NCBI GenBank assembly: GCA_019912885.1
Contig: JAIOHV010000123.1
Span: 1-50,165, forward strand
DNA length: 50,165 nt
Direction of reading: 5' to 3'
Origin: a bacterium
GTDB lineage: Bacteria; Lernaellota; Lernaellaia; JACKCT01
Part shown: piece after piece, positions 23,969 to 36,164 of the stretch
How the letters are laid out: each line of letters opens with the position of its first letter
Position numbering within the stretch: position 1 is the first letter of the stretch
The notes under the pieces: generated by a model
Seen by the model: the letters and a program-made list of their open reading frames with translations, nothing else
Told to the model about the DNA's origin: nothing
Database searches by the model: none
Position numbers and translations under genes: made by a program

Positions 23969-23982
23969 CTGAGTCTATTCAG
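23969..23982. promoter_or_regulatory. Candidate enhancer-binding dyad 2
   Basis: CTGA-N6-TCAG is centred about 42 bp (four helical turns) upstream of dyad 1 and on the same DNA face. Short and therefore weak on its own; it overlaps the last codons of the neighbouring NuoM-like gene. Confidence 0.25.
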
Positions 23983-25465
23983 GCTGTTGGGGCGTGCTCC
24001 GCCAATTTGTCAGCACGTCAGGGTTGGCAGCTCGAACCGGACCGGCACGACGGCGGGGTGCGCGCTCGCCCAGGGACGACAATCGAAACGCCGGCGCCGG
24101 ATCGTCCGGCGACCGGACAACGTGCGCGGCCTTCACGCGCGAAGCGAGAATCGGCTGCGGCCACAGTCCAAGAAGCGCAAGTGCGAAGACAAGGGCCATG
24201 AAACCCAGGTCCTCGCGCCGGCGCAATGCGAGCCGCGGATTGACCGGCACGCGTTCGCCGCAGAACAGGCGAAAATACATCCGCACGACGGCCAGACCGT
24301 TCAACACCGTCGCGACGACGATCGCCATGCCAAGGCCGGGGCGCGTCGTGACGGCGTCCGCGACGAGCAGCTCGGTACCGACAAATCCGAGCGTGCCTGG
24401 AAAGCCGACGGAACACAGGCCGAGCAAAAGGAAGCCCGCCGCCAGGCGTGGCGTGTTCTCGTATCCGCCGCTGTAGCGCGCAAGGGTGACGCGGCCGCGG
24501 CGCGCCTCCAGGGCGGCGAGCGTCATGCCAAGACCGGCGAGCGCCAGGCCGCTTGAAAGGAAAAGGAGAAGACCGCCGGCGAGGCCGGTCTCCGATGCGC
24601 CGGCGAGCGACGCGAAGACGATCGCCGTTTCGCTTACGAACAACCACCCGAACGCGCGGCGCGCGTCAGTCTGCACAAGCGCGATGCCCGCGCCGTAAAC
24701 GCACGTCGCGGCCGTCGCGACGGCGAGCACGGATCCCATGACGACGGGCGCCGCGGGGACCACGAGGCGAAGCGCGGCGAAAGTCCCCCACTGCGGCACG
24801 GCGAACATCAAAACGGCCGGGAGGGGGGCCCGCGCGAATAGATGCGGCAGCCAGGACTGAAACGGCGCCACGCCCTGGCGCACCATCGCGGCGGCGAGGA
24901 TGAGCCCCGCGCCGAACGCCGACGCCGAGCGCGCAAGCGCGACGCCCGCGACAAACAGCGACGCGGCGATAAGGGCGTTGATGCGAAAGCTCGGGCGCAC
25001 GCGCGCGGCGTTCGGAAACGCGCCAAGCTCGAGATCGAGCGGAAGAAACGAAAGCACGAAAAACGCGGCCAGGCCGATGTCGGTCGCGGAGGCGAAACCG
25101 CCGGCGATGAACGCCTCGGCCAGCATCATCCGCGCGGCGCTGCCCTCGCTCCATTTGCGCATCGGCGCGACAACCGCGACAAACAGCGCCACCGTTGCGG
25201 CGAAAACGAACAGCGTCGCGTTGAGTTCGTCCAGGACGAACACCGCCCGCGCACCGAACATCGGGCCGGGATCGAGCGGATCAAGCCACGCACCCCTCGC
25301 GCCGCGCGCACCGCGTTCGATGAGCGCGCCGGCCGACGCCGCGAGAACGAGCAGGTTCACGACAAGCACGACGCGGCGCTGCCGCGCGGGAATCGCGCGC
25401 GCGACGATCGCGCCCGCGACGGGCGCGAGGACCATGATCGCGATCCACGGGACAAAAAACGTCAT
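23975..25465 (-). CDS. NuoM/NuoN-like proton-channel subunit of Dab operon
   Basis: 496 residues, about 14 membrane helices. The proton-conducting-transporter core shows FQSWLPHLFARAPLPAVLM in place of the usual PFHxWLPxAhxxAPtpvSal, and the C-terminus has FPGTLGFVGTELL, as in NuoM. ATG 25465 overlaps the preceding stop by 4 bp. It is the third gene of a translationally coupled dabA-dabB-dabB2 run, so it likely forms part of the membrane proton path that energises inorganic-carbon uptake. Most Dab systems have one such subunit; a second, NuoM-like one is less usual. Alternatively it is a subunit of an Mrp- or complex-I-like pump. A 56-bp fragment of a near-identical sequence lies at 16339. 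Confidence 0.8.
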   Translation of the reverse strand: MTFFVPWIAIMVLAPVAGAIVARAIPARQRRVVLVVNLLVLAASAGALIERGARGARGAWLDPLDPGPMFGARAVFVLDELNATLFVFAATVALFVAVVAPMRKWSEGSAARMMLAEAFIAGGFASATDIGLAAFFVLSFLPLDLELGAFPNAARVRPSFRINALIAASLFVAGVALARSASAFGAGLILAAAMVRQGVAPFQSWLPHLFARAPLPAVLMFAVPQWGTFAALRLVVPAAPVVMGSVLAVATAATCVYGAGIALVQTDARRAFGWLFVSETAIVFASLAGASETGLAGGLLLFLSSGLALAGLGMTLAALEARRGRVTLARYSGGYENTPRLAAGFLLLGLCSVGFPGTLGFVGTELLVADAVTTRPGLGMAIVVATVLNGLAVVRMYFRLFCGERVPVNPRLALRRREDLGFMALVFALALLGLWPQPILASRVKAAHVVRSPDDPAPAFRLSSLGERAPRRRAGPVRAANPDVLTNWRSTPQQPE

Positions 25466-26841
25466 CGCGCGCCCCCGGAGGGCGGGCGCGGGGCGGATTT
25501 TCGCGCCGCGCCGTCGAGCGATATCGCGAAATTCTTCTCGAACCGGTCGAATGCGCGAAACGTTCCGACGAACGGACGCACGACGAAGCGGTCGAGGAAA
25601 TCGTCCAGATGCGCGCGCTCGAGCGCGAAGCGATACAACCGCCGGCGCACGGACGCGGACAGCAGGCGCTCGTAATGCAGCCCGGTGTGGGCCAGATGGC
25701 CGCCAACGGCGTTTTCGACGTTATGAAAATCGTGCAGCAGGCTCGGTGCGCGGAGAAACTGGAGCGAACGAACGCACGCATGCCCGACGGTGTGCAAGAT
25801 GGCGAGCCAATACAGGCCGAGCCCGACCTCGACGAGGATGAGGCTCACCTGCGTCAGCGTGGCGAAAGCAAGGGCGGTCTTGATGTCCGTCTGAACGCGG
25901 CCGACGGTCGTCGCGACCAGCGAGGTGACGAGCGCCATGACGACGATGACCGCCGCCGCGACGGCCGTTTCCTCTAACAGCGGCGCGAAACGCAAAAGCA
26001 GATACACGCCCGCGTGGACCGAGAGCGCGCCGTAGAAAATGGCGCTGGAGGGCGTGGGGCCTTCCATCGCGCGCGGCAGCCAGCCGGAAAACGGCACCTG
26101 CGCGCATTTGCCCATCACCGCGACGACGACAAGCAACATGACGATCGTCGCCTGCGTGCCGGTCAGCGCCGCGCCGGCGCCGGGCCAGGGCGCGTCACCG
26201 AAGATGTGTCCGTATTCGCCGGAGCCCGTCCAGGTGCGCAACAAGATGGCCGCGACAAGGAAGCCCGCGTCGCAAACGCGATAGACGACAAGCGCGCGGA
26301 AGCCATTTTCGACCGCCGCGCGCCGGTCGTGGAAGAACGCGACGAGCAGGCCGGCGGACAGACCGACAAGCTCCCATCCCGCGAACGCCAACTCGACGCC
26401 GCCCGCGAGAACGATGAGGTTCATGCCGGTCGCGAACAGGGCGAGCAGGGTGAAGAAGCGGTTGTAGCCGCGCTCCTTGTGCACGTAACGATGCGCGAAC
26501 GCGCCGACGACGCCGAGCAGCGCGGTCGAAAACAGCGCGAACGGGACGGAGAGACGATCGAAGATGAATTCGATCTCGAAGCGGTAATCGCCGACGTGAA
26601 ACCAATCGGGCAGGCGCAGCGCGACAAGGGTCCGGCCGCCGGCGATCATCATCCCCGCGACGAGCGCGTGGCATAAAAACGCGAAGACGAACGTCCCGCG
26701 CGTCATTCGCCCGACGGCGGTTTCGCCAAACGGGCGGCGCAAGAACCCCGCGCCGCCGAGCACGAGGAAGAGCGCGGGCGGCGCGGCCGCGGCGGCGAGG
26801 GCCAGGCTCTCGGTGATGCCCCATTCCGCGCCGGCGCTCAT
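25462..26841 (-). CDS. dabB: DabB-like (NuoL/ND5-type) proton-channel subunit
   Basis: 459 residues, multi-pass. Near the N-terminus EFIFDRLSVPFALF and then AFAGWELVGLSAGLLVAFF match ND5/NuoL. KCAQVPFSGWLPRAMEGPTPSSA contains the channel Lys and the WLPxAMxxPTPxSA signature. It is shorter than NuoL (about 600 aa) and lacks the long lateral helix, as expected for DabB. It overlaps both neighbours by 4 bp (ATGA), giving strict translational coupling with the DabA-type gene. The expected role is coupling proton flow to CO2 hydration/bicarbonate accumulation by DabA. Confidence 0.87.
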   Translation of the reverse strand: MSAGAEWGITESLALAAAAAPPALFLVLGGAGFLRRPFGETAVGRMTRGTFVFAFLCHALVAGMMIAGGRTLVALRLPDWFHVGDYRFEIEFIFDRLSVPFALFSTALLGVVGAFAHRYVHKERGYNRFFTLLALFATGMNLIVLAGGVELAFAGWELVGLSAGLLVAFFHDRRAAVENGFRALVVYRVCDAGFLVAAILLRTWTGSGEYGHIFGDAPWPGAGAALTGTQATIVMLLVVVAVMGKCAQVPFSGWLPRAMEGPTPSSAIFYGALSVHAGVYLLLRFAPLLEETAVAAAVIVVMALVTSLVATTVGRVQTDIKTALAFATLTQVSLILVEVGLGLYWLAILHTVGHACVRSLQFLRAPSLLHDFHNVENAVGGHLAHTGLHYERLLSASVRRRLYRFALERAHLDDFLDRFVVRPFVGTFRAFDRFEKNFAISLDGAARKSAPRPPSGGAR

Positions 26842-29800
26842 CGTGCGCCTCCCGCGGGCGCGATCGTCGCGCAGGCGATGGGGTCGCGCCGGCCGGCGTA
26901 CCAGCGCGCCGATGACGCGACGATCGGCAGTTCGTCCGATTCGATCTCGTGCGGCACGAAGGCTCCGCTCGCGGCTTCGAAGAGACGGATGTCCACGCCG
27001 CCGGGCGCGAGCGTCGCGAGCGTGATCCAGCGATGACGCACGAGGCGGTCGATCGCGGGCAGGCGCGCAAGCACCGCCAGAAGCGTATCCGGATCCGTCT
27101 CGACGACAATGACAAGGCGGACGGGCTCGTGGATTTCGACCATCTGCCAGGGCAGGCCCGTGCGCAGGTCGCTCGCGTGCCCGTCCATGACGCCGAGCAT
27201 CGCGCTGATGTTATGCGGCAGCTTCGTTCCGCAGCCGTAGCCAATCGGATCGACGAACGAAAAGTAGTATTCAAGGCTGATGCCCGCGCACACCGGCACG
27301 ACCGCCGCGAGCACGCGCTCGAGGATCGCCCCGTCGGCGCCGTCCGTGGACGGATCATACGAAACGAGAAAGGCGCGGCGATCAAGGAACAGCCCGCGCG
27401 TCCTTTCGCGCCGGCCGACGACGCACACCGCGTTCGTGGCGTGGCCGTACTCCGGGCGCGGCTGCGCGAGATCCTCCGTGCGCATTTCCACGTGCTCAAG
27501 CGCCATCGCGGGCGAAATCGCGTCGCCCGCGTGATCGAAGCGCCGGCAGCGCTCGTGCGCGTTTCGCTCGCGGGCCGCATCGAACGCGACGCGCACGGCC
27601 TCGAAATCGGCGCGGTGCGTCGTGGGGACTTCGTCGTCGAAAAAGCTCACGGCGTCGTTGCAACTGTTGTGCTCCGCGCCGACAAATCGCGCCGCCGGCG
27701 GAATTGAAACGCCACGCCGGGCCAGCTCCTCGCGGACGGCCGGGTTGTTGGCCATCAGCGCGAACGCGCGCGCGTTCGGGCCGCCGCGCCCGCCACCGCA
27801 CGCGCCGCAATCGTGCGCCGACTCGTGGGGGTTGTTCAGACTCGACGATCCATGTCCGACGATGACGACGAGGCGCGAAAGCCGCGCGGCAAGCCCTGTT
27901 TCCCGAAGCACGGCCGCGACAATCGACGCCATCTCGGCGATATCGTAGCCCGCGCGTTCGCCGAGCATGGGCGCCGCGTTTTCGTCGCGCTCGACGGACA
28001 GTTGCGTGCGCGCGGGAAGCCGCGTCAGGCGGCCGATCCGATGGCGCACGCGGGCGGCGGTGCGCGGAAACAGAACGCGGGCAATCAGCGGAAACGCGGC
28101 AAGCGCGCCGAGCATCGCGGTGAGGACGGCGCCGCGCGTGAAGGTTCGGCTGCCTACGTCGTAGGAGCGGCGCATGCGGCCGATGCGGCGAAGTAGCGCG
28201 CGGCGCACGCGAGCCTCGGTTTCGTGCGTCTCGAGGATGCGTTCGGTCACTTCGTGCGCGGGACGGATGACGACGGGGCATAACGGGCGCGGGTGCGCGT
28301 CCGATGCGCCGCGGTAATACATGGCGACGCCGAAAAAACCGGCGTAGCCGAAGGTCTCGCACGCGGGCTCGACCTCCTCGAGATGACGGCGGATCGATTC
28401 CTCGCGCTCGTCGATGCAGAACATCGCCTGAAAACGCGGGGGGTCCGCCTGGATTCGCGGCGCGCGATCGTGGTGCGCGGCGAGCGCGTCGAGGATGCCG
28501 ATCCGATGCCGCCGCTCGTACGCGAGATGCCAGAGCCGGCGGCGCTCGATGTCGCCGAACGCCTCGATGTCGTCGAGCACGTCGCGGACCGCCCTGGCGT
28601 CGAGCGCGCCGACCTCGCGCGCGGATCGGCCGGCGAGTTGCGCGACCTGATAAAGCACGTACGCATCGCGAATCGGCGGGCTTGCGGCGTCCCGGGGCGC
28701 ATCGTCCGCCGGAATCGCGCCGGCGGCGTCGCGCAGATCGGCGAGCGGCAGGTCGAATCGCTCTTCCAGCAGCACGTGCGCGCAGGCCGCGCGATCGGCC
28801 AGAAGCCGGAGCGCGAGGAAATCGACGAGCCTCGCGGGCGGCGCGAAGGACGGAACGCGATCCGGGCGCTCCTCGACCTGACGGATCATGCCGGCCCATC
28901 CGCGCAGCGCCAGAAGCGAAGCGGCGACAAACGCATCCCATTCGTCCGCGCCGACACCAAGCACCGAAAGCGAATGCACGGCGGATGCCTCGGCGGATCG
29001 CCCGGCCTCGCGATCGAACGCAAGCAGGCGGGCAAACTCCGCGGGAAAGCCCGGTCCGCGATCGGGCTCGCGGCCATAGAGATCGCGCGTGCCCGCGTAC
29101 AGGCCCGCGTCGCGATCGGGCATGGGCCAATAGGCGATGCCTTGATCCAGGAACGCGGCGCAAACGCGGATGAGTATCGGATGCGCGAGGGCGTCCGCGT
29201 CGCGGCCGGTCAGCACAAGCAGCGCGTCGCGGTGACGCGGTGACGAGGATTGAGGATTGAGGATTGAGGATTGAGGATTGAGGATTGAGGATTGAGTGGA
29301 ACGCAAATTCGCCGAGGCATCATATCCGTCCGTCGCGCGTTCGGCGGCGTGGACGCAAGCGCTCCAGAGGGCGCGAAGGGCGGCGGGTTCGTCGCCGCGC
29401 GACAGGGCGCGCGCGGCGCCGCGATGCGCGTCGATGACGCGCCCACGCGCCTCGTGCGGGGCGTCGTCGCGGAAGCGGCGAAGCAGCGCCGTTTCCTCGA
29501 TCAGCCAGCGAAGTTCGGTTTCGGCGGGCGCGTCGATGCCGCGCGCGAGCGCGGCGAAACGCAGATCGAAGCGCGCGATGAAATCGCCAAGACAGGTATC
29601 GGCGGTGTCGCCGAGGTCGCGGGCGAGAACATCGCGCAGGTCGATTTCGCGGATGCGGCCGGCGGCGAATTCGTTTCGATAGTGTCCTTCGGGCAGAAAG
29701 GGCTCACAGCCGAACAGGCGCCCGGCGGCGACGACGGCATCTTCGAACGGGCGATCCTCGAAGGCGTGCAGCGTATTGTGATGAATGAAGATCGAGATGG

Positions 29801-29924
29801 GGCCCTGAGCGGGCAGGAGATGGGCGGCGTGTCCGATGGCTTCGTGGAGGCGGCGGGCGCGGACTTCCGGCCCGCCTTGATCAGGTCCCGGTTCCGGCTC
29901 CCGCGTTTGATTATCACCCGACAA
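26838..29924 (-). CDS. dabA: DabA-like (DUF2309) inorganic-carbon transport subunit
   Basis: 1028 residues from TTG 29924 (AAAGGG upstream); no ATG gives a better start. IFIHHNTLHAFEDRPFEDAV is the DUF2309 N-terminal signature. Zinc-site candidates are Cys and Asp in MFCIDEREESIR (about 501-503), His in VIVGHGSSSLNNPHESA (about 690) and Cys in HDCGACGGGRGGPNARAF (about 706), the beta-carbonic-anhydrase-like set known for DabA. The protein is cytoplasmic and bound to the DabB membrane subunit, where it is thought to hydrate CO2 unidirectionally. An in-frame heptanucleotide repeat (29245-29296) inserts a low-complexity QSSILNP stretch at about residues 208-226. Divergent from the receiver-like gene at 30251. 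Confidence 0.9.
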   Translation of the reverse strand: MSGDNQTREPEPGPDQGGPEVRARRLHEAIGHAAHLLPAQGPISIFIHHNTLHAFEDRPFEDAVVAAGRLFGCEPFLPEGHYRNEFAAGRIREIDLRDVLARDLGDTADTCLGDFIARFDLRFAALARGIDAPAETELRWLIEETALLRRFRDDAPHEARGRVIDAHRGAARALSRGDEPAALRALWSACVHAAERATDGYDASANLRSTQSSILNPQSSILNPQSSSPRHRDALLVLTGRDADALAHPILIRVCAAFLDQGIAYWPMPDRDAGLYAGTRDLYGREPDRGPGFPAEFARLLAFDREAGRSAEASAVHSLSVLGVGADEWDAFVAASLLALRGWAGMIRQVEERPDRVPSFAPPARLVDFLALRLLADRAACAHVLLEERFDLPLADLRDAAGAIPADDAPRDAASPPIRDAYVLYQVAQLAGRSAREVGALDARAVRDVLDDIEAFGDIERRRLWHLAYERRHRIGILDALAAHHDRAPRIQADPPRFQAMFCIDEREESIRRHLEEVEPACETFGYAGFFGVAMYYRGASDAHPRPLCPVVIRPAHEVTERILETHETEARVRRALLRRIGRMRRSYDVGSRTFTRGAVLTAMLGALAAFPLIARVLFPRTAARVRHRIGRLTRLPARTQLSVERDENAAPMLGERAGYDIAEMASIVAAVLRETGLAARLSRLVVIVGHGSSSLNNPHESAHDCGACGGGRGGPNARAFALMANNPAVREELARRGVSIPPAARFVGAEHNSCNDAVSFFDDEVPTTHRADFEAVRVAFDAARERNAHERCRRFDHAGDAISPAMALEHVEMRTEDLAQPRPEYGHATNAVCVVGRRERTRGLFLDRRAFLVSYDPSTDGADGAILERVLAAVVPVCAGISLEYYFSFVDPIGYGCGTKLPHNISAMLGVMDGHASDLRTGLPWQMVEIHEPVRLVIVVETDPDTLLAVLARLPAIDRLVRHRWITLATLAPGGVDIRLFEAASGAFVPHEIESDELPIVASSARWYAGRRDPIACATIAPAGGAR
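29245..29296. repeat. Heptanucleotide tandem repeat inside dabA
   Basis: Seven perfect GAGGATT units plus GAG lie within the dabA coding region. The unit length is not a multiple of three, so gain or loss of one or two units would shift the frame, while the present number keeps it open. In the minus-strand protein it is read as repeated QSSILNP. Confidence 0.9.
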
Positions 29925-30035: not shown

Positions 30036-30190
30036 GACCCGCTCCCTAACGGTCGCGGTTCGTATCCGGGAACGGGAGACCCGCTCCCTTACGGTAGCGG
30101 TTCGTATCCGGGAACGGGAGACCCGCTCCCTAACGGTCGCGGTTCGTATCCGGGAGACCCGCTCCCTTACGGTCGCGGTTCGTGTTCAGC
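30036..30190. repeat. 42-bp tandem repeat, about 3.7 copies
   Basis: Units begin GACCCGCTCCCT and continue through CGGTCGCGGTTCGTATCCGGG; they start at 30036, 30078, 30120 (36 bp, lacking 6 bp) and 30156 (partial). Each junction contains GGGAG-acccg-CTCCC, a small hairpin. It lies between the divergent dabA and receiver-like genes, so promoters of both may be near or within it. The unit resembles a repeat I recall from Planctomycetes and Verrucomicrobia intergenic regions (not searched). Confidence 0.85.
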
Positions 30191-30583: not shown

Positions 30584-30840
30584 TCGGTATTAAGATCGCG
30601 CCCTTGCGTGACGCGGGATGGCGCCAAGACCCCCGGCGTCGAGACCGATTGATCCGGCACGGCGAAATTCAATTGATCTCGCGGCACGCTTGGCGGATAA
30701 TCCGCGCGGTTCGCATTGAAAATGAGATTCGATTGTCATTGCGATGTCATCCGCCATTGTTGCGGGTTTGTAATCAACTGATATAGCCGCGGGGCCGGGA
30801 AGCGGAACCGTTTGTTCCGCCGTCGTTTGAGGGAGGGACC

Positions 30841-30879
30841 ATGTCGATTCTTGCGGCACGGCGGATTCATGCCGCCTGA
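30841..30879 (+). other. Possible 12-codon leader ORF
   Basis: A strong ribosome-binding site (GAGGGAGGG) precedes ATG 30841, which opens MSILAARRIHAA and stops at 30877-30879, overlapping the ATG 30869 of the large gene in another frame. This may be a translation-coupling leader, or the large protein could instead begin at an upstream TTG (30812 or 30827). The preceding 257 bp (30584-30840) hold no gene I can support. Confidence 0.3.
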
Positions 30880-33800
30880 CGTCCCGCCATCCGATCCGCG
30901 GATCATCGATTCGCGACGCACGGCGGCGCTGGCGTTCGCCGTCTTTCTCGCGTCGTTCGCGTTTTTTGCGTCCAACCTTTCCGGGCGCGAGCCCACGCTC
31001 ATGGAGTCGCAGGATCTGGACATCGCCCATCGGCTGACCTGGCCGAAGGCGCTGCCCATCGACCAGTCGCCGATCTATTACAAGTTCCTGAAATTCTGGC
31101 TCCACTTTCACGGGACGCCGATCTCCAATCCGCGCCTCCCGTCGGCGATCCTCGTTGCGATGGGCGCCGCCGCGCTGTTCCTTCTCGGCCGCAAGTCCAT
31201 CGGCCTTGCCGGCGGTTTGGCCGCGGCGCTGATCTTCACCACCAACGCGGTGGTTCTCGAGAACGCCCGGCTGGCGCGCGCCTACCCGGTGGTGCTGATG
31301 TTCGCGTGCGTCTCGATGCTGTTTGGCGCGCAATACGTCACCTATCGGCGCGCACGCGATCTGCTGGGCTTTCTCGCCGCGACGGTCGCGGGCATCTACA
31401 CGCACTTCTTTTTTCTTCTGTTCGCCGGGTCGCTCGGTCTCGTGGTCATCGCCGATCTCGTGGCGCATTTTCGCTCGCGCCGGCCGCGCTGGTGGTTTTT
31501 CGCGATGGGCGCGGCAGCGATGCTGGCGATCGTTCCGCAACTGTTACGCGTGGAAAAAGCCATTCGCTACTCGGAGGCGCGGCACGGGCTCTATGGCGGC
31601 ATGTCTGCGGAGCCGCTCGCGTTTTTCAAGCAGCTTGGCGCCGACTATTTCCTTCTCGGCACGAAAAACCCGGTCGCGCCGGAATGGGTGCTGATCGCGC
31701 TCGCGGCGGCGATGGTGATGGGGGCGATCGCCCTGCGTTGGCGCGGGACGATCGCCCTTGTCCTTCTTGCGGGGCCGACGCTGTTTGCCGGGTGGCATCT
31801 TTCGAAGACCAACCCGATGCACACGCGGTACGTGCTGTTCCTGCTGCCCGTGTTCGCGTTTTTTCTCGCGGCGGTTTTGCGCGCCCGGCCTCGATGGGTC
31901 ATCGGCGTCCCGATCGTCGCGGGCATCCTGGCGGTGAACGCGCTGGCGCTCGCGAAAAAGCTCGACGAGCCGAACACCGACTGGGGCGATGCCGCCGCGT
32001 ACGTGCGCGAGATGCAGCGCGCGGGCGATGTCGTCGCGGTTTTTCCGCACCACTGGGATCTGACGTTCCGGGAATTTTATGAAGGGGATACGACGGATTT
32101 CACGTTTGTCGAACAACTCGACCGCGTTTTCGCGCGCGGCCGGCGGGTGATCCTCGTTCAGGGGCCGGGACGGCCGTTCGATAACGTCGGGCGGTTCATG
32201 CGCAAACGGGCGCGGGTGACGGGGTCGTTCGGAACGAAGCAGCGTTTCCGGATTCAGGTACACATTCTCGAACCGCACCCGGCGGACCCCGTCGCCATCA
32301 CCGATTTGGGCGCGCCATCGATGTTGTTCGGCGGCATCGTCGGTTCGGGCGGTTACGGGTGGCAACTTGCGCCCGAACCGGAAAATCCGTTCGCGGGTCT
32401 TTCCGATCTCATCGGCGCCGCGGACATGACGATCTTCGCGTATATGCCGCTTCGGCCTCCCAAACCGCTCAGGGACATGGTCGGACGGCCGCTCTATCGC
32501 GCGCTCGGCAACCGCAGCCAGGTGATCGATTTCCTGCGGGAAGCCGGGGTCGATGCCCTCGCGCCCGTGCCGATGATTTCGCGCCGCGTGCGCCCGGGCG
32601 TGAGTGCGATCGGCGGCATCGACGCGGTGCCGGTGAACGCGACGTGGCGGGACGCGGCGGCGCGCGTGTTCGATGTCGCCGGTACGAAGGTGGGTGTTCT
32701 TTATTCGCGGCAACAAGTTTTTTCCGACAAGCCGCAATACAAGCGCCAGCGCGACGCGACGATCGCCGAGTTCGAAGGCGCGGTGGCGCGTGCACGCACG
32801 GTCGCCGGCGAAAACGGCCGACTCGTGGTGCTTCTGCCGCAGCCGCCGGATTTCGACATGCTGTTCACGCCGGAAGATCAATATCTCGCGCGCCGCGCGA
32901 TCGATCTTGGCGCGGACGCCGCGATCGGACTTGGCGGCTTCGCGTCCAAGGAGATCGAGGAGTACCGCGACGGAGTCATCGCGCACGGGCTCGGCACGCT
33001 CGTGCGCCCGCGGGCGATGGCGGGGGCGGATCGATACTCCACCGGGCTTTTATTACGGCTGGCGTTTGGCGGCCGCGAAGGCGCGGCGTATCAGGCGATC
33101 CCGGTGACGTTTGACGACGCCGAGCGGCCCATCCCGGCGGATCGCGAGGCGGCGCGAAACGTGGTGTACGCCCAAAGCAGCGCGGCGCGCGAGCGCCTTG
33201 CCGACGGTCTGCTGTACGCGCGCGCGGGCTACGAAACGAAAGGCGGCGAGCGGCGCGATATCAAACGCTGGAGATCGGCGCCGTCGATGAAACACGTGCC
33301 GGCGAAGATCGAGGACTGGCTGCCCGGCGGCGGCGCGGGCTACGTCGTTCACGATCGCTGGGCCGAGGGCGGCGCGGCCGTGGGCGCGGAAGGCATCGTT
33401 TCGCATGGAATCTTCCGAAGGGCGCTGACACTCGCGCCCGGCGAGCACGGCGCGGTGTCGGTCACGTTTCCGAAGGTGCTGCTTGGCGAGACGATCGAGC
33501 TTGCCTTCGGCGTTGCGGACAAGACGTTCACCGCCCGCGCGCGCCGCCTGAAGGTCCAGCATCTGCGCGTGCAAATCGGCGAGAAGGTCCGCTTCAGGCG
33601 CAAGGTCGAGCACCTCTCCGGCTGGCAGGACGTGTCGGTTCATACGGGGGACCTGGCGGGCACGACGCAGGACGTCACGTTCGTTCTCGAAACGCGGGAA
33701 AAGTCGCGTTTCGCGGTCGCGATCGATCCGGTCGCCGTGCGCGGGCCCGAGACGCTCGCGAAGATCGCCGAGATGCCGTTCGCGTTCGAGGAACATCTGT

Positions 33801-34327
33801 CGGAGGCGCGCGTGTTCGTGCGCGATCGCGGGCGCGACGCGCCCTGCCACGGGCCGGACGAGACGCATCGCTACCTCTACGGAGGCCCGCATCGCGCGGA
33901 AGAGCACGGTCCATTCGGCGAGGGACTTTTGCGCACGCGATGGGTTTGCGGCGCGATGCCGTGGGATTCCGCCGCGCGAACGGTGCAAAAGGCGGGCGGC
34001 GAATTGCGCCGCGCGATCTGGCTGCATCCGCCCGACGCGGGAGAGCGCCACATCGTGTACGGCCCGATGACGGCGCGGCGGCGCATTCATGGCCATGTCG
34101 CGCTGACGGACCTCGCGCTCAAAAAGAACAAGTTGCCGGTGACGTTTTCGATCCTCGTCAACGGCACGCCGATCCTCGTAAAGACCGCGGGCGACACGCC
34201 CGGGTGGCTGCCGTTTGAGGCGAGCATCCCGGACGAGCTGCGCGGGCAGGACGTGGAGATCGCGTTTGTCGCGTCGGCCCAAAAGGCGACGTGGCGGCAT
34301 CTTGTTTTCGACGCCGTTATGGATTGA
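30869..34327 (+). CDS. Membrane glycosyltransferase (GT39-like) / degenerate CapA-like fusion
   Basis: About 1152 residues from ATG 30869. Residues about 15-385 are an ArnT/PMT-like multi-pass domain: SQDLDIAHRLTW after helix 1, ENARLARAYPVVLMF, and SKTNPMHTRYVLFLLPVF near its end. A middle part (about 500-800) resembles the CapA metallophosphoesterase fold (LVVLLPQPP, DQYLARRAIDLGADAAIGLGG, HGLGTLVRPR). The metal-binding GHHPH and WG residues are replaced, so catalysis there is doubtful. The last 350 residues are beta-rich and unrecognised. It would transfer a sugar or polymer unit from a lipid carrier at the periplasmic face (inference). Followed by a GT2 glycosyltransferase and a deacetylase, consistent with a surface-glycan role. 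Confidence 0.7.
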   Translation: MPPDVPPSDPRIIDSRRTAALAFAVFLASFAFFASNLSGREPTLMESQDLDIAHRLTWPKALPIDQSPIYYKFLKFWLHFHGTPISNPRLPSAILVAMGAAALFLLGRKSIGLAGGLAAALIFTTNAVVLENARLARAYPVVLMFACVSMLFGAQYVTYRRARDLLGFLAATVAGIYTHFFFLLFAGSLGLVVIADLVAHFRSRRPRWWFFAMGAAAMLAIVPQLLRVEKAIRYSEARHGLYGGMSAEPLAFFKQLGADYFLLGTKNPVAPEWVLIALAAAMVMGAIALRWRGTIALVLLAGPTLFAGWHLSKTNPMHTRYVLFLLPVFAFFLAAVLRARPRWVIGVPIVAGILAVNALALAKKLDEPNTDWGDAAAYVREMQRAGDVVAVFPHHWDLTFREFYEGDTTDFTFVEQLDRVFARGRRVILVQGPGRPFDNVGRFMRKRARVTGSFGTKQRFRIQVHILEPHPADPVAITDLGAPSMLFGGIVGSGGYGWQLAPEPENPFAGLSDLIGAADMTIFAYMPLRPPKPLRDMVGRPLYRALGNRSQVIDFLREAGVDALAPVPMISRRVRPGVSAIGGIDAVPVNATWRDAAARVFDVAGTKVGVLYSRQQVFSDKPQYKRQRDATIAEFEGAVARARTVAGENGRLVVLLPQPPDFDMLFTPEDQYLARRAIDLGADAAIGLGGFASKEIEEYRDGVIAHGLGTLVRPRAMAGADRYSTGLLLRLAFGGREGAAYQAIPVTFDDAERPIPADREAARNVVYAQSSAARERLADGLLYARAGYETKGGERRDIKRWRSAPSMKHVPAKIEDWLPGGGAGYVVHDRWAEGGAAVGAEGIVSHGIFRRALTLAPGEHGAVSVTFPKVLLGETIELAFGVADKTFTARARRLKVQHLRVQIGEKVRFRRKVEHLSGWQDVSVHTGDLAGTTQDVTFVLETREKSRFAVAIDPVAVRGPETLAKIAEMPFAFEEHLSEARVFVRDRGRDAPCHGPDETHRYLYGGPHRAEEHGPFGEGLLRTRWVCGAMPWDSAARTVQKAGGELRRAIWLHPPDAGERHIVYGPMTARRRIHGHVALTDLALKKNKLPVTFSILVNGTPILVKTAGDTPGWLPFEASIPDELRGQDVEIAFVASAQKATWRHLVFDAVMD

Positions 34328-34341
34328 GGGAATGTTGTTTT

Positions 34342-34406
34342 ACCGCAAAGACGCAAAGGCACGCGCAAAGACGCAAAGAATGAATTTTCTTTGCGCCTTC
34401 GCGGTG
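34342..34406. repeat. Octamer repeat forming an inverted pair
   Basis: Units of CGCAAAGA/CGCAAAGG type (four copies) are followed after a short AT-rich loop by the reverse form (CTTTGCGCCTTCGCGGT). The two arms can pair over about 17 bp with two mismatches, so the spacer between the fusion gene and the GT2 gene would form a long hairpin. Confidence 0.7.
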
Positions 34407-34426: not shown

Positions 34427-35209
34427 ATGGTGATGATCCCCGTACCGCACGCGAGAAGCCTGTCGGTCGTGATTCCGTATTACAACGAGGAGGCGAACAT
34501 CGAGCCGTCGCTGCATGGCGCGCTCGATTATCTGCGCCGGCGCTTCGACGATTTCGAGATCGTCGCGGTGGACGACAAAAGCACCGACGCCACGCTTTCG
34601 ATCGCGCGGCGAATCGCGGCGGGGGAGCCGCGCGTGCGCGTCGTGGCGCTCGATACGAACACGCGTTTTGCCGGCGCACTGAAGGCGGGCTTCGCGGCGG
34701 CGACGAAGGAGTACGTGTTTTACACCGACGGCGACTGCCCGATCTGCTGGGATGACCTGGATCGCGCGATCGTGGAGTTGATCCGCTACGACGCGGTTGT
34801 CGGATACCGCACGACGCGCGACAAGGAGGGGTGGATCCGCAAGCTCTACACGACGGCGTATCGCCTGACCCTGCGCGCGGCGCTCGGGCTTTCGTTTCGC
34901 GATGTGAATTTCAGCTTCAAGCTGTTTTCGCGCAACGCGCTGGCGGCGGTGATGCCGATCGCGTCGACCGGCTCGTTCATCGACGCGGAAATCCTGTGCC
35001 GCCTGCTCGACCGGGGGCTGGCGATCCGCGAGATACCCGTGCAGTACCGCTCGCGCGTGCGCGGCACCTCCACGCTCGCGACGCCGGCGGTGATCGTGAA
35101 GCTGCTCGGCGAACTGGCCTCGTTCTGGAACGCGCGGCGCAAGACGCGCGGCCTGCGCGGCGTGCGACGGCCGCGCCACGAGCTTCCGGATCTGGTCGAT
35201 CAGGGATGA
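34427..35209 (+). CDS. Family 2 glycosyltransferase
   Basis: 260 residues from ATG 34427, which has GGGAGG seven bases upstream. The GT-A fold shows SVVIPYYNEEANIEPSL, VAVDDKSTDAT (nucleotide-binding Asp) and FYTDGDCPICWDD (DxD-like metal site). VNFSFKLFSR and EIPVQYRSRVRGTST near the end are typical of dolichol-phosphate mannose synthase/ArnC-like enzymes. No C-terminal membrane helices are present, so it is probably cytoplasmic or peripheral. It likely makes a lipid-linked sugar, which the preceding GT39-like protein could use (inference from order). Confidence 0.85.
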   Translation: MVMIPVPHARSLSVVIPYYNEEANIEPSLHGALDYLRRRFDDFEIVAVDDKSTDATLSIARRIAAGEPRVRVVALDTNTRFAGALKAGFAAATKEYVFYTDGDCPICWDDLDRAIVELIRYDAVVGYRTTRDKEGWIRKLYTTAYRLTLRAALGLSFRDVNFSFKLFSRNALAAVMPIASTGSFIDAEILCRLLDRGLAIREIPVQYRSRVRGTSTLATPAVIVKLLGELASFWNARRKTRGLRGVRRPRHELPDLVDQG

Positions 35210-35222
35210 AACGCAAAGAGTT

Positions 35223-35295
35223 CACCACAGAGAACACGGAGAACACGGAGATTTTTTCCATGCATGACTCCGTGCCCTCTGTGTTCTCCGTGGTG
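35223..35295 (+). terminator. Repeat-built hairpin with T tract
   Basis: CACCACAGAGAACACGGAG arms (nonamer AACACGGAG repeated) pair with the reverse form CTCCGTG...CTCCGTGGTG around a loop of about 17 nt; ATATTTTT follows the stem. It lies between the GT2 and deacetylase genes and could end transcription. It belongs to a different repeat vocabulary from those at 34342 and 39220. Confidence 0.6.
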
Positions 35296-35336
35296 CAATA
35301 TTTTTCGGGCACACGCCGTCCATTCGGCGTCGCGTC

Positions 35337-36164
35337 ATGACGCATACGCTCCTCATCGTCAACGCGGACGACTTCGGCATCGCGGCCGGCGTCAACCAGG
35401 CGGTCGCGAAGGCGTTCGACGCGGGTATCCTGCGCTCGGCGACGATCATGGCGGGCGGCGCGCACTTCGACGAAGCGGTGTGCATCGCGAAAGATCGGCC
35501 CGCGCTTGGCGTCGGCGTGCACATGACGCTTACGCAGCTTGCGCCCGTCGCGCCAATCGACGACGTGCCGAACCTCGCGCCCGGCGGAATATTCGCGCCA
35601 ACGCACGTCTCATTCGCGCGACGACTTCTCTCCGGCAAAATCCCGCGCCGCGAAATCGAGATCGAATTTTCCGCCCAGATCGAACGCGTGCTCGCGGCGG
35701 GCATCGACATCACGCACCTGGACAGCAACGGGCATCTGCACGTGCTGCCGCGCGTGCGCGCGGCGTTCGCGGCGGTCGCGAAGAAATTCGGCGTCGCGAA
35801 GATGCGCGTGCCGATGCTCGGCGGGCCAAGCCGAAGCGCCGAGGAATACGTGAAGGCGATCGCGATCGCGGCGACGGCGCGTGCCGCGCGTCCGGCGTTT
35901 CGCGGGCTCGCGCATCCGGATCACTTATGGGGTCTCGCCGCGTCCGGCGACATGAACCGGACGCGCGTGCTCGCGATCATCGAGCGCCTTGTCCCCGGCA
36001 CGCACGAGTTGATGACGCACCCCGCCGATCACGATCCGGATTTTACGCGCGCGTTCCCCTGGGGCTACCACGGCGAGGCGGAGCTGGCGGCGCTGTGCGA
36101 TCTGGAGGTGAACGCGATGGTAGAGAGGCGGGGGGTCGTGCTGGGCAATTATCGGGATATTTGA
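35337..36164 (+). CDS. YdjC/ChbG-family carbohydrate deacetylase
   Basis: 275 residues from ATG 35337. LLIVNADDFGIAAGVNQAV is the family signature with the metal-binding Asp pair. VGVHMTLTQLAP and THLDSNGHLHVLP supply the His ligands. GTHELMTHPADHD near the C-terminus is also characteristic. Members deacetylate N-acetyl groups of chito-oligosaccharides or, as HpnK, hopanoid-linked glucosamine. Position after two glycosyltransferases suggests glycan modification. Possible ribosome-binding site is weak because the repeat hairpin lies just upstream. Confidence 0.87.
   Translation: MTHTLLIVNADDFGIAAGVNQAVAKAFDAGILRSATIMAGGAHFDEAVCIAKDRPALGVGVHMTLTQLAPVAPIDDVPNLAPGGIFAPTHVSFARRLLSGKIPRREIEIEFSAQIERVLAAGIDITHLDSNGHLHVLPRVRAAFAAVAKKFGVAKMRVPMLGGPSRSAEEYVKAIAIAATARAARPAFRGLAHPDHLWGLAASGDMNRTRVLAIIERLVPGTHELMTHPADHDPDFTRAFPWGYHGEAELAALCDLEVNAMVERRGVVLGNYRDI

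Follow-up and report, generated by a model that had tools for sequence, protein, structure and literature searches.

What might a membrane glycosyltransferase do with a CapA-like domain from which almost all of the CapA ligand motifs have disappeared? The question is raised by a gene for a protein of 1152 residues (30869..34327, + strand) in the window analysed here, which is the whole 50,165-nucleotide stretch of contig JAIOHV010000123.1 (contig C123 of the Lernaellota genome G000, a 4.8-Mb assembly that is 99% complete). An excerpt of one published account equates the GTDB phylum FEN-1099 with Ca. Lernaellota and with Podoxiota (PMC11382960). The protein is predicted to join a GT-C membrane domain to a degenerate CapA domain, which we call pseudo-CapA, and to a tandem pair of CBM51-like jelly rolls. 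We give roughly even weight to the proposal that it is a periplasmic GT-C transferase of the ArnT/PMT kind with a built-in acceptor-recognition arm, which would take a hexosamine carried on polyprenyl phosphate and attach it to a surface glycan or to lipid A.

Architecture of the fusion protein

The fusion architecture is genuine and not a product of chance, because five full-length copies, the window copy included, occur in three genomes and none of them contains an internal stop. The longest open frame of the window copy runs from a TTG start through 30812-34327 (+) and encodes 1171 residues, and an in-frame ATG at 30869 gives the 1152 residues used here, so the original prediction of a frame of about 1150 residues at 30869-34327 holds. 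In a first search of 98 genomes, full-length matches were confined to G000, G005 and G006, all of one class and amounting to three of its seven genomes, and partial matches alone were found in 14 of the remaining 95. Three of the copies stand in tandem on contig C298 of G006 (L023:2584-13280), beside one GT2 gene and one YdjC gene; these are 35-40% identical to the window copy and 38-49% identical among themselves (35-49% across all five). A profile of the C-terminal third, run against 290 genomes, likewise limited the full-length matches to the same three genomes, with partial matches in six others.

Searches with the alignments against genome contigs gave no match for the full fusion, and the C-terminal alignment retrieved one named record, PMZC01000028.1, which is identical over 16 kb to contig C298 of G006. 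A 1109-residue frame in G189 matches the C-terminal profile and was set aside, the GT-C match being absent from the stretch searched. The other long frames that contain CapA, L045 (G002:C3) and L050 (G006:C72), gave neither a jelly-roll match nor a match to the full-length query and represent a different fusion. Read by eye, their CapA domain follows an N-terminal part that resembles an amidohydrolase, and the CapA part of L050 also appears degenerate, that of L045 partly so.

The window protein by itself produced two sub-threshold Pfam matches and a third at chance level, none in NCBIfam, and one insignificant match in the PDB (E 2.2), and profiles of the five copies were needed for this reason. 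The Pfam family PMT_2 reaches 25.1 bits at residues 65-225 of the window copy against a cut-off of 26.1, and is matched by all five copies (best E 4.4e-11). Since the profile of this region gave a single chance match among PDB sequences (E 2.5), it was the fold comparison that decided the assignment. Foldseek placed ArnT first (E 7.7e-6), and VIA placed Pmt4 first (Z 16.1 over 289 residues, 4.2 A). Thus, as judged from its model, the N-terminal domain (residues 1-365; 30869..31963) is a GT-C transferase with an ArnT/Pmt-like fold, much as the original prediction of a GT39-like membrane domain had it. Six residues in it (E46, D49, D65, P68, R137 and Y139) are invariant in the five copies.

An alpha/beta tail lies close to the membrane behind this domain (residues 366-470; 31964..32278). 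A hydropathy scan places the hydrophobic segments within residues 17-365 and finds none above threshold beyond residue 365, so the roughly 790 residues that follow should lie on one side of the membrane, which by analogy with ArnT would be the periplasm. The extra domains should be periplasmic for the same reason, because they follow the last membrane helix.

The middle domain (residues 480-755; 32306..33133) was already suspected of having a CapA-type fold without its metal ligands, and each part of that suspicion is borne out. PGA_cap scores 24.0 bits at residues 624-712 of the window copy (cut-off 27) and is matched by all five copies (best E 6.2e-15), and among PDB entries the five-copy profile matches a member of the CapA family (E 3.6e-4). 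The structural values given here for the CapA and jelly-roll domains come from one model of 683 residues (470-1152) with a mean predicted local distance difference test score (pLDDT) of 70.8. Structure prediction, which could have left the domain without a CapA match, instead aligned it with MslH, an epimerase of the CapA family (Z 18.4 over 259 residues, 3.8 A).

For the motif comparison, the five fusion domains were aligned with eight complete CapA paralogues of the class that are encoded separately, leaving out a 153-residue fragment (L042), a second record of the same place (L044, equal to L040) and the long multi-domain frames L045 and L050. Ten D, N, E or H positions are kept by all eight intact paralogues: the D of GD, the N and E of NLE, the two N, the H and the D of NNHxD, the H of HWG, a later H, and the N of GN. 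We take these conserved residues to be metal ligands. The fusion copies retain one of the 50 corresponding positions (the E of NLE, in L003) and have lost the other 49, and the NNHxD loop is shortened in all five such that its H and D are deleted. The middle domain is therefore best described, on the evidence of this alignment, as derived from CapA without being a CapA enzyme.

The approximately 350 beta-rich residues that had been left unassigned do form an extra region, which is predicted to consist of two jelly rolls that are CBM51-like and putatively bind sugar. A variable linker (residues 756-838; 33134..33382; mean pairwise identity 24.9%) leads to jelly roll 1 (residues 839-960; 33383..33748; 31.8%). 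A conserved stretch with an invariant Cys993 follows (residues 961-1020; 33749..33928), and Cys1027, a possible partner of that cysteine, lies just beyond it. Jelly roll 2 (residues 1021-1152; 33929..34324) is the most conserved part of the protein, with a mean pairwise identity of 50%. The two jelly rolls are related to each other by hhalign (probability 96.2, E 2.5e-9). The second superposes on 7jrl with a Z of 13.6 (2.2 A over 126 residues) and is the CBM51-like one of the two, and the best Foldseek match by E-value for the pair is the tandem CBM51 structure 2ygm (E 7.9e-11).

Mean pairwise identity among the five copies is 42% for pseudo-CapA, 38% for the membrane domain and 36% for the tail, and 48 of the 276 pseudo-CapA positions are invariant, among them a Q-V-(D/E)-P stretch that is specific to the family. 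The higher conservation of pseudo-CapA and jelly roll 2, relative to the transferase, argues against decay. We accordingly consider it highly improbable that the gene is a decaying pseudogene or an assembly chimera, even though the Pfam matches of the window copy fall just under their cut-offs and the neighbouring YdjC gene carries an unusual Asn. Such an explanation is contradicted by the intact homologues, which present an identical fusion design in three assemblies, five copies without an internal stop, and conserved positions in every domain.

The three-gene set and its proposed chemistry

Two genes come immediately after the fusion in each of the three genomes that carry it, and in the window they are on its strand. 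The first (34427..35209, +; 260 residues from an ATG, the longest frame starting at a TTG at 34391) encodes a GT2 protein that is a candidate polyprenyl-phosphate sugar synthase of the ArnC/DPM type, its best solved relative being ArnC (E 4.9e-11). The second (35337..36164, +; 275 residues) encodes a carbohydrate deacetylase of the YdjC/HpnK/NaxD type that matches PF04794 (E 6.7e-60), with a chitooligosaccharide deacetylase as its best solved relative. Across the three genomes the GT2 proteins are 59-61% identical and the YdjC proteins 51-58%, and the GT2 that scores next best within the class shows 37% identity. A YdjC of the operon type occurs in three of the seven class genomes, which are exactly those with the fusion. 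G004, G005 and G006 have another YdjC at a different place, with 31-32% identity in the two cases compared, and those of G004 and G005 stand beside neither a GT-C match nor an operon-type GT2. A GT2-like stretch lies near that of G005 (32% identity over 135 residues).

The best NCBIfam match of the window YdjC is HpnK, and a squalene-hopene cyclase is found above its cut-off in the window genome. HpnI and HpnK make glucosaminyl hopanoid, and these matches agree with an explanation in which that lipid is the product of the GT2 and the HpnK-like YdjC, and the fusion protein acts on a hopanoid or merely adjoins the genes. However, the cyclase is present in two of the seven class genomes (G000 and G001), and none was found in either of the other two genomes with the three-gene set, G005 (96% complete) and G006 (84%), whereas G001 has the cyclase and no YdjC. 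A hopanoid substrate would also leave the CBM-like domains on a GT-C enzyme unexplained. The genome distribution makes a hopanoid role unlikely, and we hold only slight belief in it, though it may apply to G000 alone.

The trio of GT2, YdjC and GT-C resembles the machinery that adds amino sugars from undecaprenyl phosphate, and roles in donor synthesis, transfer and recognition are proposed on that basis. From the architecture, the predicted folds, the motif loss, the conservation and the conserved three-gene set, all of which are directly observed or computed, we infer the following chemistry. The GT2 protein would charge undecaprenyl phosphate with an N-acetylhexosamine, as its similarity to ArnC and to DPM synthases suggests, and YdjC would strip the acetyl group from the lipid-linked sugar in the manner of NaxD. 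A flippase, whose gene was not found at the locus, would move the donor to the periplasmic face. There the GT-C domain, for which sugar transfer from a polyprenyl-phosphate donor is predicted by fold and family, would pass the hexosamine to a surface polysaccharide or to lipid A. Pseudo-CapA and the two jelly rolls would bind and position the acceptor without catalysis, a role suggested by the motif loss, the conservation, and the precedent of EmbC, AftD and GT136 ORF12.

A polysaccharide acceptor would fit the jelly rolls and lipid A would fit the trio, and we make no choice between them. LpxC is encoded in all seven class genomes, which makes lipid A a possible acceptor. The three diverged tandem transferases of G006, served by one GT2 and one YdjC, suggest one donor and several acceptors or positions. 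The original prediction had pictured an all-in-one protein for polymer transfer and recognition. Its recognition part is supported by the CBM51-like jelly rolls and by precedent, and its all-in-one character is not, given that the GT2 and YdjC functions reside in separate genes; the fold and the neighbours would agree better with one sugar being passed on from a polyprenyl-phosphate donor than with polymer transfer.

A different acceptor is imaginable. The GT-C domain might be a bacterial PMT that acts on secreted proteins, with the extra domains binding the protein substrate, and this would agree with the PMT_2 match of all five copies, with Pmt4 as the top VIA score, and with the CapA relative MslH, which acts on a peptide according to part of its published description (PMC9266682). 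Foldseek nevertheless places ArnT first, and the CBM51-like domains and the deacetylase gene seem to suggest that an amino sugar is donated and that the acceptor is a glycan. Protein O-glycosylation thus strikes us as improbable, if less so than a hopanoid role.

Several observations weigh against the proposed transfer of a hexosamine to a glycan or to lipid A. The model of residues 1-479 from which the GT-C assignment derives is weak, with a mean pLDDT of 61 and most of residues 231-369 under 50. In their first periplasmic loop GT-C transferases have a DE pair as the catalytic acidic motif, and this pair is half changed in the five copies, its D being replaced by M, A or V and its E kept, although E46 and D49 are invariant in all five. 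For the CBM51 likeness, the tandem pair superposes badly on 2ygm (root-mean-square deviation 18.8, template modelling scores 0.15 and 0.26), and no NPCBM/CBM51 Pfam match appeared in the five copies at E<=1 or in a search of profile A3 against PDB sequences at E<=10, such that the likeness is one of fold. Furthermore, jelly roll 1 (32%) is less conserved than the membrane domain (38%). The CBM of GT136 ORF12 bound acceptor and yet was not essential, according to an excerpt of the source (PMC11127046).

The neighbouring genes add points of the same kind. The GT2 protein stays below every NCBIfam cut-off and scores higher for PgfS (65.3 bits), PgaC (63.6) and AglJ (50.7) than for ArnC (49.4), and YdjC is below every listed cut-off as well, including that of HpnK (190.5 versus 232.6 bits). 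Whereas D11, D12, H62, H127, D129 and H135 are kept in all five YdjC proteins aligned, the window YdjC has Asn131 within the HxDxHxHxH stretch where His stands in all seven of the relatives set against it, namely three solved proteins, two homologues from the operons and two paralogues of the class. Because of this replacement, deacetylation in the window genome may be altered or lost. Finally, a flippase is absent from the three-gene set, and GtrA (PF04138) was found in none of the seven class genomes, MATE and SMR proteins not having been searched.

The surroundings of the set contribute other observations. A purine-rich GAGGGAGGGACC lies in 30829-30879 and is followed by an open reading frame of 12 codons (ATG at 30841), whose end overlaps the fusion start at 30869 and which is possibly a coupled leader. 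By eye, repeats of the GCAAAGACGCAAAG type and the CACAGAGAACACGGAG type occupy the spaces between the three genes (34340-34380 and 35225-35300). Upstream, positions 23975-29924 of the minus strand encode DabA (1028 residues) together with a pair of antiporter-like subunits (Proton_antipo_M), a set that resembles DAB systems for inorganic carbon transport, with NrfD and 4Fe-4S genes slightly beyond. A 42-bp tandem repeat of 3.7 copies (30036-30183) falls between the genes for DabA and the fusion. DabA, the two antiporter-like genes and the three genes past YdjC were unmatched in the stretches searched in G005 (16.6 kb) and G006 (34 kb).

A stand-alone partner beside free GT39 enzymes

The partial matches to the C-terminal profile lead to proteins of 307-343 residues, with one N-terminal hydrophobic segment in each of the four examined. 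The first part of this partner protein resembles the tail of the GT-C domain by hhalign (probability 73.7, E 2.9e-5) and the last part resembles jelly roll 2 (probability 98.1, E 9e-14), and the Cys pair is invariant in both the partner proteins and the fusion copies. Pseudo-CapA is unrelated to the partner profile, and three partner examples scanned have no Pfam assignment. A profile of four partner proteins gave matches, some of them partial and weak, in one class in 78 of 96 genomes and in a second class in all 25.

Thirty loci were returned for each class search, and at 57 of these 60 (L068-L127) a GT39-type match adjoins the partner gene, the exceptions being L069, L093 and L097. Two of the 60 (L110 and L123) are the same place, and L068, L098 and L099 repeat places from which the profiles were built. 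The GT39 profile was itself built from the first neighbours at four loci, of which that of L063 is below the Pfam cut-off. In the rows shown, GT39 shares the strand of the partner gene and lies downstream of it, and at none of the 60 loci do both share one frame; where four loci were read by hand, the partner gene ends where GT39 begins. The partner, noted at L061-L064 as well as at L068-L127, looks like an accessory subunit. Because the tail and jelly roll 2 occur as a partner beside a free GT39, the fusion can be described, from these sequence comparisons, as joining two otherwise separate proteins and adding pseudo-CapA and jelly roll 1.

This arrangement bears on a further explanation, in which pseudo-CapA binds nothing and serves instead as a structural spacer, fixing how far the jelly rolls reach, or as an assembly element through which the enzyme forms dimers. 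In the fusion, pseudo-CapA and jelly roll 1 separate the tail from jelly roll 2, a pair that the partner has without them. The loss of 49 of the 50 motif residues and the deleted H and D of the NNHxD loop also speak for a spacer. Yet the domain is conserved above the membrane domain, and its invariant positions, with their Q-V-(D/E)-P stretch, are more than a spacer needs. We regard this explanation as a minority possibility, if a somewhat better one than protein O-glycosylation.

Returning to the acceptor-recognition arm, a broader formulation can be offered tentatively, with more doubt than support but above the spacer in our estimation. The bacterial GT39 enzymes of several lineages might be two-part enzymes, each with a catalytic membrane subunit and a single-pass acceptor-recognition subunit that consists of the GT tail, the Cys pair and a CBM51-like jelly roll. 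The Lernaellota protein would then be the fused form, to which a further jelly roll and a CapA domain have been added, the dead site of the latter rebuilt as an acceptor clamp, and it would place an amino sugar on a surface polymer.

Relation to known systems and significance

ArnC, ArnD and ArnT form a trio of GT2, deacetylase and GT-C for the addition of an amino sugar to lipid A. This set and flmF2/naxD/flmK both correspond to the trio at the fusion locus, a likeness drawn by family and by description. We know of no CapA or CBM domain in the GT-C enzymes of the Arn and Flm systems. Compared with three-component periplasmic glycosylation, the fusion locus has a deacetylase gene in the set, and a flippase was not found there. 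In the portions of the sources that support these points, NaxD, of the YdjC family, acts on GalNAc linked to undecaprenyl phosphate (PMC11279074), and flmF2 and flmK are listed as lipopolysaccharide glycosyltransferase genes that are lower in variants whose lipid A has less galactosamine (PMC4688374).

A second comparison is with EmbA/B/C, AftD and GT136 ORF12, which, as far as excerpts of their accounts go, resemble the fusion in having a GT-C core, a donor linked to polyprenyl phosphate, and extra periplasmic beta-sandwich modules able to bind the acceptor glycan (PMC7341804, PMC11127046). The CBM modules of EmbC, AftD and GT136 ORF12 bind the acceptor, according to part of one of these (PMC11127046). 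A CapA domain goes unmentioned in the same excerpts, whereas the fusion has pseudo-CapA (PMC7341804, PMC11127046).

The added domains also have relatives of their own. With CapA/PGA_cap proteins and MslH, pseudo-CapA has fold and sequence family in common, and it differs from them in its missing ligand motifs, its shorter loop and its attachment to a membrane transferase. The CBM51 modules of ZmpB and GH98 share the jelly-roll fold and the tandem pair, but those of the fusion lack a Pfam match and belong to a membrane glycosyltransferase instead of a hydrolase or protease. The protein is thus of a known kind, a GT-C enzyme with periplasmic recognition modules, of which the pseudo-CapA part and the CBM51-like pair were not found described. 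A literature search on CapA-GT39 fusions, pseudoenzymes and CBM51 periplasmic glycosyltransferases gave no account of such a protein among the titles and abstract openings, which does not prove absence.

What began as an odd open reading frame of about 1150 residues has become a testable three-gene glycosylation cassette, with a candidate function for some 350 of those residues. Pseudo-CapA is a clear case in which a CapA domain has stayed under constraint although its ligand motifs are gone. Furthermore, with a partner gene standing beside GT39 in two other bacterial classes, the choice of acceptor by these enzymes becomes directly testable.

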